IMG/VR virus record: IMGVR_UViG_3300013119_001059
Span: 1-30,180 of that record
DNA from: a virus
Strand: one strand, 5' to 3'
Length of the DNA stretch: 30,180 bases
Below, piece after piece: positions 25,358 through 30,040 of the stretch. The notes below the pieces were generated by a model. It was given only the letters and a program-made list of their open reading frames with translations. It had not been told where the DNA came from and did not search any database. Both the position numbers and the translations under genes were made by a program. Position 1 is the stretch's first letter; each line of letters begins with the position of its first letter.

Positions 25358-26821
25358 TTAGCTTTCCTGCGCCCGCTTGGCGACAGCCTCCTTGTACGCT
25401 GGATCGTTGTAGTTCATGGGGAAGAGGAGTACGTCCTCGTCACCCTCCGACGGGTCGTCGTCCGCGCCGTCCGATGCGGGCACGCCCACGCTCTTCCGGG
25501 CCTTGACGATGATGCCCTTGAGCCGCTCCACCTCGCTCTCGAGGTGCTCGATGGTCTTGAGCTGCTCGGCCTTCTCGACGTCTTCCTCGTCCTCCGACTC
25601 GGGGTCGTCCCCCTCGGCGGGCGTCGGGTCGTCCTCGTCCTCTGACTCGGGGTCGGGGTCAGGGTCGTCCTCGCTCTCGGGGTCGTCGTCCTCGTCCTCC
25701 GCGGGTGCCGGGTCGTCGTCCTCGTCGGCCTCGGGGTCGGCGGGTGGGTCCTCGTCCTCGGAGGGCTCCTCCGGGTCAGGGTCCGGGTCGGCGGGCGGGT
25801 CCTCGGAGGGCGTGGGCTCGGGGTCGTCCTCCTCGCCCTTGGCGACGGTGTCCTCCACCGTGTCCAGTCGCCCTTCGATGTCCATGAGCTGCAGGGACAT
25901 CGAGGCCTCGTCCACGTCCTCGGACTTGCTGACGGCCGCGGCGTGGCGGTCCACCAGCCCCTGGACGATGTCGCGCAGGCGGCGTGCTTCGCGCAGCGTG
26001 CGGGCGTCGACGTCGTTGTTCTTCTCGGCCCTGGTGCAGAGGTTGAGCGCCCGGGTGGCCACGTCGCGCAGCGTGCTGGCGAACTTGCGCGCCCCCTTGG
26101 CGACGCACAGCCCGTCGTATAGGGCTTGCAGGTTGTCGCGGATCCGGCCGATCTCGGCCTTGGCCACGTCGGACACTTCCTCGCCGGCGGTGCTGGCCAG
26201 CAGCGCTGCGTCCTGGGCCAGGCCTCGCATGAAGTCGTGGGCGGCTTTGCCCAGCGCGGCCTCGTCCGGCTCGTCCTCTCCGAAGGGCGCCGGCAGCTTG
26301 GGCAGCTTCTCGCTCTTGGCGACGCCGAGCTCGGCGGCCATGTCGATCATGCGCCCCAGCTCCTGCTCGATGGTCGGCAGTAGGGCCGGGTCCATCTCGC
26401 CGAAGTCCACCATCATGTGGGCGGTGTTCAGCCCCATCTCGGCGAACTCGCGCAGCTGAGCACCCGGGTCGCACTTGACGGCCGGTTCGGGCTCCGGCTC
26501 GGGCTCCGGCTCGGGGTCTGACTCCGCAGGCTCCGGGTCGGCCGGTGGATCGCCCGAGGGCCCGGGGTCGTCGCCTCCGAGCTTCTTGGACAGATCGGCC
26601 ACCTGGCCGCTCAGGTCGTTGAGAAGCTCCACCGCTTCCTGCAGGTTCTCGACCGCGCCCTCCGTGGGGGTGATCTCCGGCTCGTTGGGCATTGCCTCCT
26701 CCTTGAACACGAGAAACCGACGCTGGTTCGCAGCCCTGTCTACCAGGTCCACCTTGTCCGGCTCGATTTCCTTGAGGCGGCGCCGGCGTCGATCTTGCTC
26801 GTCTGATGGTGTATCGGCCAT
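25358..26821 (-). CDS. Scaffold-like protein with acidic tracts and coiled coil
   Basis: A 487-residue, very acidic protein. After five arginines (11-15) residues 23-40 read KVDLVDRAANQRRFLVFK, a pattern common at the N-termini of XkdF-related phage head proteins. A helix at 55-80, a DPEPEPEPEPEP run near 102-113, a helical middle (120-325), an Asp/Glu/Pro tract at 330-415 and a coiled coil at 416-443 (AEQLKTIEHLESEVERLKGI) follow. V-x-K-x-E occurs at residues 38, 167, 297, 326 and 415. Its place just before the major capsid and its length and composition fit a scaffolding or prohead-core protein, probably removed by the protease upstream. The Shine-Dalgarno is weak, but the gap upstream holds a promoter candidate. 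Confidence 0.7.
   Translation of the reverse strand: MADTPSDEQDRRRRRLKEIEPDKVDLVDRAANQRRFLVFKEEAMPNEPEITPTEGAVENLQEAVELLNDLSGQVADLSKKLGGDDPGPSGDPPADPEPAESDPEPEPEPEPEPAVKCDPGAQLREFAEMGLNTAHMMVDFGEMDPALLPTIEQELGRMIDMAAELGVAKSEKLPKLPAPFGEDEPDEAALGKAAHDFMRGLAQDAALLASTAGEEVSDVAKAEIGRIRDNLQALYDGLCVAKGARKFASTLRDVATRALNLCTRAEKNNDVDARTLREARRLRDIVQGLVDRHAAAVSKSEDVDEASMSLQLMDIEGRLDTVEDTVAKGEEDDPEPTPSEDPPADPDPDPEEPSEDEDPPADPEADEDDDPAPAEDEDDDPESEDDPDPDPESEDEDDPTPAEGDDPESEDEEDVEKAEQLKTIEHLESEVERLKGIIVKARKSVGVPASDGADDDPSEGDEDVLLFPMNYNDPAYKEAVAKRAQES
26487..26516 (-). repeat. 12-base tandem repeat coding (Glu-Pro)n
   Basis: The unit TCGGGCTCCGGC stands twice in tandem at 26487-26498 and 26499-26510 and begins a third time. 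It encodes the Glu-Pro run of the scaffold-like protein. The unit preserves the frame, so copy-number change would vary the linker length. Confidence 0.7.
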
Positions 26822-26940: not shown

Positions 26941-29682
26941 CTAGTTCAGCTCCATGGCGAGCGCGGTGCCCTCGATGCTCCAGCCCGTCAAGCGGCCGGC
27001 CTTGATGGCAGCCCACAGGGCGTCGTCCAGCACTCGGGCGGCGAGCAGCCACGTGCCCTCCGTGACGTGCTGACCCTCCATGTCGAAGTCGACGGGTGCC
27101 AGGTAGGACTCGAGGATCTTGATCTTGGCCTCTGGCAGAGTCCGCTCGTGCATCAGGCCCAAGACCGGCGAGAACTCCATAAAGAAGTGAGCTGCCTTAC
27201 GAACCTCCTCCTCGCTGTAGATGTCCCCCTGGGAGTCCACTTCGTTCGGCACCAGCACCACACCCAGAACGTAGCGCTCCTCCTCATCCTCATCATCCAC
27301 CGGTGGCTTGGTCTCGTATTTGAGCAGCTGAATCTGGGTGTCTTGCAGCAGCGTCTTCGGTAGATCACTCGGCAGCTCCGGCATCTCCATCTTCTGAACC
27401 GAGGCCAGCAGCCGGCGCGCCTTCGCCGCTGTCTTGTCCTTCACGGACTGCGGCAGCTTGCTCTGCGGGATGCGGGACAGGGCATTCCGCAAGTGCGGCG
27501 CGTCCAGCTTGCCGTTGTGGTCCCGCACGGGGAAGTGCCGCAGGGCCCTCGGCACGGTCTTGCCCTCCGAGTCCTTCTTACCACCGGACTCGATGTGCAG
27601 GAATGCGCTGTCCGGCAAGTCGTTGATGTACTTGGTGCTCCACTTGATCTTGGAGACAGTTTCCGCCACGTCCTCATCGGTGGCGTCCTCGATCAGCTCC
27701 TCCATGTAGTACTTGGTGACCACCTTGCCGATGGCACCCCCGACAAACATGAGCTGCTCCCCGGTCACGAAGCCGGAGGCCATCAGCTCATCCCGGCGCT
27801 GAGTCCGCTTGGCCACATCGCTCTCACGCCAGTACTGCATCTCCCGGGGCACCAGCTTCTTCACCCCCACCGGCAACCCCGACCACCCTTGTGGCGGCAC
27901 GTCAGCCTCGGCCTTGAGCACATTAGGTAACAGGTCGTCTGTCAGCGTGGCGGTCCAGTAGGGATCCTCCTCACCCTGCTTCTCCACCAGCAGCCGGCCG
28001 AAGAGCTGCTTATCCCGCTCCAAGAAGTACTCATGGCTGCTCTTGGTGATGAGCCCGCAGGTCACAGCCGGCCGCGCCACCGCCAACATCGCACCCACTT
28101 CGTCGTCGGCTGCTCCGGTCTCACCCGGCGCGAAGGACTCCTCCTCGACATCCAGCCACGGGTTGGGCTGCGCACCCTTGCACACGCAGAACACCCGCTC
28201 GGGCGCCAGCAACGCCTTGATGTGCGAGCTGCCGGTGACGGTGAAGGCCTTGGCCAGCCCGCGAAGTCCCTCAAGGTCTAGCGGCGGCATGTCCGCCGCC
28301 GCATGTTGACAAGCCAGCGCGTAGCTCACCGTCTCGTCGCCCACCTCCATCCGCATGTCAACGTGCAGCCTGTTGCCGCGGGCATGTAGGTGCAACACAC
28401 CTCGACCCGGGCGGTCCTCGCCCACAAGCCGCGGGGCGCCCTTGTTGATAGGCTCCACCCCGGCTGCCAGCAACTCGACCTCGCTGCAGCGGGCCTCGCT
28501 GCGCTTGGCGATCTGGTTATACAGGGTGGCAAGGCGGTCCTCAACCTCATCAGGCGGCAGCTCGTCCGGAGCGCTCTGGGCGTCCTCCAAGCTAGGCAGA
28601 TCTGGGCGCCGCACAGCCTCCTCTACAGTAAACTCCACCCCGCACTTTGCGCCCGCTTCTTTGAGCAGGCGCTGCGCGTCCTGCGCCATCTGCTCGGTCA
28701 GAGCACCGAGCGTCGGCGCTCTCGAAAGCGGCCCGTCGAGTAGCTCTTGTGCTCGCGAGTGCAGCGGCTGCAACATCTCCACCGGCAGCCCTTTGATCAC
28801 ATCCTCCGCCACGTCTACGAAGAACACCCATGGGGTGGGATCGGGCCCGACGGCCTTCTCCAACGACAACATGGTGCGCACGCTCTTCAGCAGCTGCTCG
28901 GCATGTGCAGCCTGCCGGCAACGTGCCGGCAGCATGCCTGCCAGCGACTCCACACTGCCAGCGAGGACAGCCCCCAACTCGAACGGTGGGGTGGTGCTCT
29001 CCATGCGCGGCAGCGGGTCCTCGTCGACGGCTTTGAGCACCCCGGCGCTCTCAGCATGCACCATCTCCAGCAGCGGCTCCAGATGCGCCAGGTCGATACG
29101 GGCCTGCCCACGCACCTCCAAAAGCTTTTCCAGTCTGGCAGCCACAGCCGGCAGCTGCTGCAGGGCAACTCCTGTGGCTGAGTGCGCCAGCGACAGGATG
29201 CTGACGCCCTCACCGGATATGCTCTGGACGAAGCCACTGTCCTTGGTGACATCCTCCTCGTATCGTGGTGGCGGCAGCTCCTTGCTGACAGCCAGCAGCC
29301 GCGGCGACGGCCATGCTTGCGCTTGCTTCACCACGTTGCAGTAGAGCCGGCGCTGTTTGGGCCAACGCTCCTTCCGCATCTCGTCGGTCATGCCGTGCTT
29401 CTTGACGGATAGCCGGAACTCAGGGATGGACATGGGTCGGGGCTCGTCCAGCTGGACGGTGCCGTAGGCCATGTCCTGGTCCGTGAGCAGGAGCGAGCCG
29501 CTGCAGGCCAGCGGCTCGCGCGAGACCACAAGGGTGATCTCGCCCTTGCACACCCGCTCGGGCATACCTGGGGGAAGCATCAGCCTGTTCGCGGGCGTCT
29601 CCGCCGCTTGCTGCGCGGCCGCCTGCAGCATCCTGTTCGCGCGCTGCAGCGCCTCCCGTACTTCTCTCAGCTCATCGGACAT
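26941..29682 (-). CDS. Multi-domain prohead protease fusion (XkdF-like, LigD-PE-like)
   Basis: A 913-residue protein from the ATG at 29682 (GAGGAG just upstream; a longer start at 29751 overlaps the previous gene). Residues 55-125 contain TDQDMAYGTVQLDEPRPMSI and MRKERWPKQRRLYCNVV. Residues about 425-565 resemble the LigD 3'-phosphoesterase fold: LHLHARGNRLHVDMRMEV gives His433, His440, Asp442 and Arg444, with HEYFLERD at 550. Residues 684-760 carry YINDLPDSAFLHIESGGKKD and RALRHFPVRDHNGKLD, DAPHLRNALSRIPQ, a module known from phage head proteins. Residues 803-908 are the XkdF/S78-type protease: VPNEVDSQGDIYSEEEVRKA, LMHE with His845, and GWSIEG with Ser902. It would cleave scaffold and capsid precursors. 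Whether the phosphoesterase-like part is active is unknown. Confidence 0.78.
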   Translation of the reverse strand: MSDELREVREALQRANRMLQAAAQQAAETPANRLMLPPGMPERVCKGEITLVVSREPLACSGSLLLTDQDMAYGTVQLDEPRPMSIPEFRLSVKKHGMTDEMRKERWPKQRRLYCNVVKQAQAWPSPRLLAVSKELPPPRYEEDVTKDSGFVQSISGEGVSILSLAHSATGVALQQLPAVAARLEKLLEVRGQARIDLAHLEPLLEMVHAESAGVLKAVDEDPLPRMESTTPPFELGAVLAGSVESLAGMLPARCRQAAHAEQLLKSVRTMLSLEKAVGPDPTPWVFFVDVAEDVIKGLPVEMLQPLHSRAQELLDGPLSRAPTLGALTEQMAQDAQRLLKEAGAKCGVEFTVEEAVRRPDLPSLEDAQSAPDELPPDEVEDRLATLYNQIAKRSEARCSEVELLAAGVEPINKGAPRLVGEDRPGRGVLHLHARGNRLHVDMRMEVGDETVSYALACQHAAADMPPLDLEGLRGLAKAFTVTGSSHIKALLAPERVFCVCKGAQPNPWLDVEEESFAPGETGAADDEVGAMLAVARPAVTCGLITKSSHEYFLERDKQLFGRLLVEKQGEEDPYWTATLTDDLLPNVLKAEADVPPQGWSGLPVGVKKLVPREMQYWRESDVAKRTQRRDELMASGFVTGEQLMFVGGAIGKVVTKYYMEELIEDATDEDVAETVSKIKWSTKYINDLPDSAFLHIESGGKKDSEGKTVPRALRHFPVRDHNGKLDAPHLRNALSRIPQSKLPQSVKDKTAAKARRLLASVQKMEMPELPSDLPKTLLQDTQIQLLKYETKPPVDDEDEEERYVLGVVLVPNEVDSQGDIYSEEEVRKAAHFFMEFSPVLGLMHERTLPEAKIKILESYLAPVDFDMEGQHVTEGTWLLAARVLDDALWAAIKAGRLTGWSIEGTALAMELN

Positions 29683-29692
29683 GTGCTCCTCG

Positions 29693-30040
29693 CTATGTTG
29701 GGGTCCAGATGCTGGCCTCCGCGTTGGGCTCAGGGTCGAAGTCCACCCCATCGATGGCGCAGCGTAGCGCGTGCGGCATCAGGTCTAGCGTGCGCTCGAG
29801 GCCGAAGCCGAGGTCGCCGCGCGCCCGCCGGAACCAGGTCTCACACATCTTGAAGCGGCGCTTTGTTTCTGCCTGTGTGACCTTGACCTCTCTGTCAGGC
29901 TGCCGCTTCTGGTCCTCACCGAAGCTGCGCAGGATCGTGTCGTGCAGAACCTGCGCCACGCGAGCCATGTCCTGCTTGTTACTCAGCAGCTGCGCAAACG
30001 CCGTCTGCGACGAAGCTCCTGACGTGATGATGTGGGCCAT
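29693..30040 (-). CDS. Small unknown head-block protein
   Basis: A 115-residue protein starting MAHIITSGASSQTAFAQLLS, with AGGAGAA five bases ahead of the ATG. It is helical and basic in the middle (QDMARVAQVLHDTILRSF, QAETKRRFKMCETWFRR) and ends DFDPEPNAEASIWTPT. No family is recognised. The frame is also open upstream to the right edge, but the good Shine-Dalgarno favours this start. The protease-fusion start lies 11 bases downstream of its stop, so the two are probably co-translated and its job is likely in head assembly. Confidence 0.65.
   Translation of the reverse strand: MAHIITSGASSQTAFAQLLSNKQDMARVAQVLHDTILRSFGEDQKRQPDREVKVTQAETKRRFKMCETWFRRARGDLGFGLERTLDLMPHALRCAIDGVDFDPEPNAEASIWTPT

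Follow-up and report, generated by a model that had tools for sequence, protein, structure and literature searches.

Prohead proteases work inside the procapsid, and LigD-type 3'-phosphoesterase (LigD-PE) domains are known from cellular end-joining repair. The DNA analysed here, referred to throughout as the window, is a viral stretch of 30,180 nucleotides (IMG/VR record IMGVR_UViG_3300013119_001059, positions 1 to 30,180), in which a sequence-only reading had placed a LigD-like motif within the same chain as a predicted head protease. This raises the question of what such a domain does there, and in particular whether it is an active enzyme processing nucleic-acid ends within the capsid or an inert fold retained as internal scaffold. 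The explanation that we judge best, with about an even chance of being right, is that the gene encodes, in the form of a polyprotein, the head-maturation protease of a tailed phage, and that its phosphoesterase would be a packaged enzyme for healing 3' ends.

Gene organisation of the window

The polyprotein gene lies directly upstream of an acidic scaffold-like gene and then the major capsid gene, which is the position of a head protease, and the window phage also has a tail sheath. The principal genes are as follows; relatives described below are denoted by L numbers.

29693..30040, minus strand: small ORF upstream of the polyprotein, whose homologues in L011-L018 immediately precede the PE polyprotein
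26941..29682, minus strand: 913-aa polyprotein, an ORF with an RBS-like GAGGAG ahead of the ATG at 29682
25358..26821, minus strand: acidic protein in scaffold position, between protease and major capsid protein, with weak homologues at the same place in L004, L007 and L011-L013
24394..25311, minus strand: major capsid protein (Pfam PF05065, E 1.2e-9; phrog_1623, E 6.5e-77)

The single chain of 913 residues proposed earlier is confirmed and is encoded on the minus strand, where GCGAGGAGC immediately precedes the ATG; the plus-strand frame over the same interval is interrupted by stops. The ORF can be extended to 29751, giving 936 aa. Residues previously numbered H433, H440, D442, R444, H845 and S902 are all correctly placed in the translated ORF. 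GC3 is broadly uniform along the polyprotein (0.71-0.91) and so gives no hint of a chimera. The order of small ORF, polyprotein and major capsid protein is conserved in L011-L017. The small ORF has a weak match to a SidE mART model, which is probably due to chance. No DNA ligase was found anywhere in the 30-kb window, and the contig ends approximately 500 bases upstream of the polyprotein gene.

Domain architecture of the polyprotein

From the N-terminus, the chain comprises an ASCH domain, an unassigned region, a LigD-PE-like domain, a head module and an XkdF protease, with the following features.

29302..29580, minus strand: ASCH (PUA-superfamily) domain, residues 35-127, from AlphaFold and PDB matches
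28405..29301, minus strand: residues 128-426, without a recognised domain (phmmer, comparison of architectures)
27718..28404, minus strand: LigD-PE-like domain, residues 427-655, from AlphaFold, LigD-PE PDB matches and hhalign
28351..28386, minus strand: HARGNRLHVDMR, containing H433, H440, D442 and R444, the predicted metal/phosphate site, from family conservation
28027..28035, minus strand: His550-Glu551-Tyr552, invariant motif of the viral PE branch (39/39 sequences)
27388..27666, minus strand: head module LPDSAFxxIExGGKKD, residues 673-765
26947..27282, minus strand: XkdF/Peptidase_S78_2 protease, residues 801-912, with His845 and Ser902

Across the whole chain XkdF (Peptidase_S78_2) is the only Pfam match (PF14550, E 5.9e-26). 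PHROG head maturation protease families match the same region, and alignment to the family places His845 and Ser902 as the sequence-only reading had them, so that its C-terminal XkdF/S78 protease stands. The module that it had described as a known head-protein element is also real, being 54% identical to part of a protein in the head gene region of Thermoanaerobacterium phage THSA-485A; its longer consensus is LPDSAFxxIExGGKKDxxGKTVPR, and no Pfam family matched it. At the other end of the chain, the AlphaFold model of the ASCH region (pLDDT 85.3) finds its best PDB matches in 2dp9 (Z 13.6), ZmASCH 5guq (Z 11.8) and YqfB (Z 10.7), Pfam matches ASCH in three of 11 homologues, and the domain is likely to bind nucleic acid. 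The intervening residues 128-426 gave no match with phmmer; in close relatives an NTase immediately precedes the PE domain. Typical XkdF proteases (PF14550) resemble the C-terminus of the window chain in the catalytic His and Ser and in gene position before scaffold and major capsid protein, but ahead of this part the window chain bears approximately 800 more residues, among them nucleic-acid-acting domains.

A predicted divergent LigD-PE fold

Residues 407-655 were modelled by AlphaFold from an alignment of 34 rows, from which the archaeal virus ANMV-1 was omitted, with pLDDT 91.6 and pTM 0.89. When compared with the PDB using Foldseek, the model places seven LigD-PE chains at the top (E <1e-3), with nothing else at that level. 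VIA-align gives 3p43 as best match (Z 12.3; 122 of 124 residues at 2.0 A, for the predicted model), followed by 3p4h (12.1), 3n9b (10.8), 3n9d (10.5), 5dmp (9.5) and 2lj6 (8.6), and the next fold after these six entries reaches a Z of only 2.5; the model matched all LigD-PE entries that came up in the PDB search. The fold predicted for this region is thus that of LigD-PE, as had been proposed from the motif. Profile comparison agrees, since hhalign relates the viral PE family to 18 cellular LigD-PE sequences with E 1.4e-8 and probability 95.5.

Simpler sequence searches recover little of this. A Pfam scan with the window PE domain alone returned no match up to E 10, LigD_N included, while LigD_N appears below threshold in the PE domain of three of 34 homologues and, likewise below the cut-off, in extra PE copies. 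A five-sequence PE profile had no match in a PDB sequence search; weak matches of a two-sequence profile to MamM and polb4 were dropped as chance. A structural search of BFVD produced nothing beyond one weak match to a protein without a name. Judged by predicted structure and sequence profile, the window domain belongs to the LigD-PE superfamily as a divergent branch and is not a canonical LigD-PE. It shares the beta-barrel of PF13298 (3n9b, 3p43, 5dmp) but is longer, having insertions as well as a helical extension at its C-terminus, and sits within a phage head polyprotein.

Conservation of the putative active site

In LigD, His42, His48 and Asp50 hold the metal, and Arg52, His84 and Tyr88 hold the phosphate (PMC8656161, PMC4797286). 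H433, H440 and D442 are the equivalents of the metal-binding triad and R444 that of Arg52, in a motif that has gained one residue relative to LigD (HxRGxxxHxDxR). Among 39 aligned viral PE domains, the window's included, each of the first three is present in every sequence and R444 in 38, and W509, H550, E551, Y552 and W576 are also invariant. The HxxxxxxHxDxR pattern originally noticed is therefore not a chance resemblance, given that it is kept across the 39-member family in a domain predicted to adopt the LigD-PE fold; the conservation of its four residues, which had been named as a check, is borne out.

The remaining phosphate ligands have changed. By hhalign mapping rather than superposed coordinates, the position of His84 is Q505 in the window, Gln or Glu in 34 of the 39 domains and His in one, and by the same mapping the position of Tyr88 is W509, with Trp in 39 of 39. 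Both His84 and Tyr88 are essential in Pseudomonas aeruginosa LigD (PMC8656161). In the Methanocella enzyme, the H82A mutation, equivalent to His84, abolished both the 3'-phosphatase activity and the cutting of annealed ends but left flap trimming possible (PMC4797286), and this effect suggests that the viral PE may act on a different range of substrates, or that the invariant His550-Glu551-Tyr552 may substitute for His84 and Tyr88. The third catalytic histidine, which the sequence-only reading had asked after, is thus mostly Gln or Glu at its canonical position, while an invariant His550 occurs elsewhere in the domain.

Relatives and their architectures

Scans of viral_contigs with the whole protein or short fragments found no relative, and relatives were found only through an iterated PE-domain alignment started from the window and ANMV-1, which yielded 41 viral contigs together with four loci from genome bins of bacteria or archaea. 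No PE match was found in plasmids. Among named phages the PE region matched only ANMV-1, an archaeal virus, and a made-up LigD-PE consensus matched none; ANMV-1 AJP62006 is the sole named phage record found to carry the viral PE. Annotated as an ATP-dependent DNA ligase and encoded after the portal gene, AJP62006 has the same PE domain at ~29% identity, but its order is NTase-ligase-PE-PE and its chain is without XkdF. ANMV-1 AJP62005 (L002:1913-3193), annotated as a 'MutT-like phage hydrolase', is likely the portal protein (Pfam Phage_portal_3, E 3.2e-22).

Domains were counted with local profiles in 43 relatives, some of them near-duplicates, so that the counts do not represent independent events. 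An ATP-dependent DNA ligase accompanies the PE in 37 of 43: in 25 it is part of the chain itself, and in 12 a different ORF of the locus encodes it. Four of the six relatives without one (L018, L038, L044, L050) are truncated where the contig stops or come from a very short one; in L037 and L039 no ligase was found in the stretch of sequence examined. LigD, the multi-tool of NHEJ, likewise combines PE and ligase, whereas the window chain has no ligase domain. Of the 25 same-chain ligases, 23 retain the catalytic lysine; those of L011 and L025, where it is replaced by Glu and Arg, are probably dead, and the PE metal site alongside is intact. NTase occurs in 25 chains, XkdF in 21 and N6A methylase in 14.

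Many relatives have a second PE domain, and some archaeal-virus-like proteins a third. In L032, L033, L042 and L046 three LigD-PE-like domains stand in tandem, the third with an H...HxDxR-like motif, and the ligase is in the adjacent upstream ORF. L048 and L049 are two different polyproteins of ~2000 aa, encoded close to opposite ends of a single 105.8-kb contig from a Myxococcales bin (JACPVI010000063.1), of the type methylase-methylase-NTase-PE-methylase-PE-ligase. Myxococcota and Planctomycetota are leads as host groups of such phages. At L022:7932-9086, PE is fused to a cysteine-rich stretch that by eye looks like the C-terminal end of a minor head (head-morphogenesis) protein.

These architectures bear on where the enzymes act. 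They might work late in the infected cell, on nicks and gaps of replicating or packaging DNA, and not be injected, with fusion to the protease serving mainly for co-expression or recruitment to the packaging site. Ligase, NTase and PE do occur in chains lacking XkdF, or apart from one another in neighbouring ORFs, so their linkage needs no protease fusion, but fusion to a head protease before the major capsid gene recurs in many relatives and is something that a repair enzyme of the cytoplasm would not obviously require; we consider this account rather unlikely. An improbable alternative is counter-defence, in which ASCH and PE would process modified or damaged RNA or DNA arising from host defences and not repair the genome. 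The ASCH domain, the N6A methylases of relatives and the proposal that polyvalent proteins act in conflicts with the host (PMC5512222) are in its favour; yet the commonest partner is a DNA ligase, together with NTase, and the LigD-PE superfamily makes 3'-OH ends for ligation (PMC8656161).

The window protein as a probable reduced member

The closest kin of the window phage (L007, L011-L014, L016, L017) have homologous capsid proteins, in most cases the same upstream small ORF, and a set of NTase, PE, second PE, ligase and XkdF. Set against these, the window chain, which is without ligase, NTase and second PE, looks like a reduced, fast-evolving descendant; the searches found no close relative that is reduced in the same way. 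Its PE domain stands on the longest branch in the family (2.05, against a median of 0.32) and carries changes at otherwise conserved residues (GWT to SYA, QKP to ITK). Long branch, missing partners and altered residues together indicate that the window chain may be relaxing, and all three, with the replacement of His84 and Tyr88, count against the packaged end-healing explanation.

The same features would fit a PE that became vestigial or structural after ligase loss, persisting in the polyprotein only to bind nucleic acid or as internal scaffold. This we think unlikely for the window phage, where H433, H440, D442, R444, W509, H550, E551, Y552 and W576 are all intact in the most diverged copy of the family. 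As between active end-processing and inert scaffold, the two options originally put forward, the metal ligands and the repeated pairing with ligase favour a predicted active enzyme, with the qualification that the window copy has so long a branch.

Discussion

Under the packaged end-healing explanation, the whole polyprotein would enter the procapsid by means of its C-terminal XkdF protease, while ASCH and the LigD-type 3'-phosphoesterase in its N-terminal part would be packaged with the genome and freed by maturation cleavage. The PE would then heal 3' ends (3'-phosphate, 3'-ribonucleotide or frayed) of packaged or freshly injected DNA, after which a ligase would seal them; in most relatives this ligase would come from the same chain or locus, and in the window phage it would have to be supplied by the host or encoded where the genome is not yet sequenced. 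Because prohead proteases act where they do, fusion to one would place end-healing enzymes with the packaged DNA, in the manner of P1 DarB. In favour of this explanation are the predicted LigD-PE and ASCH folds, the profile link to cellular LigD-PE, the conserved metal site, the fusion of domains, the gene position and order, and the linkage to ligase, all of them shown by the analysis; packaging, cleavage, injection and catalysis are inferred. Against it, ANMV-1 and several relatives have PE without XkdF in the chain, and packaging by protease fusion therefore cannot be general.

DarB is packaged in the head of P1 and has a protective effect on injected DNA (PMC5512222). It and other polyvalent proteins are likewise large multidomain viral chains combining methylase with other nucleic-acid enzymes, but here the carrier is a head protease and the enzymes are for end-healing, plus ligation in relatives; the text of PMC5512222 mentions neither XkdF nor LigD, and ligase only in passing. 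Proteins of phrog_1530 from PAK_P3-like phages of Pseudomonas, labelled DNA methyltransferase, have an XkdF part homologous to the window's, but the match is limited to that part and its vicinity and no PE match was found in those phages. Each component is already known; for the combination of head protease, LigD-PE and ligase, and for a head protease, XkdF or other, fused to LigD-PE or ligase, no description was found in the literature searched, the coverage of which was incomplete. A broader reading, which we offer tentatively and incline somewhat against, is that an undescribed class of bacterial and archaeal tailed viruses packages an end-joining kit by head-protease fusion, comprising LigD-type phosphoesterases, ATP-dependent ligase and NTase, with N6A methylase and ASCH, and with the PE active site rewired such that His-Glu-Tyr replaces His84 and Tyr88.

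The presence of LigD-PE, mostly with ligase, in polyproteins of viral head proteases suggests that the particles of some phages bring along enzymes for repairing DNA ends, and offers a testable candidate for how linear phage genomes become ligatable on entry. With two catalytic residues replaced and a new invariant His-Glu-Tyr, the viral domain also provides a natural variant with which the mechanism of PE can be dissected, and recognising it improves how proteins currently labelled 'ATP-dependent DNA ligase' or 'head maturation protease' are annotated.
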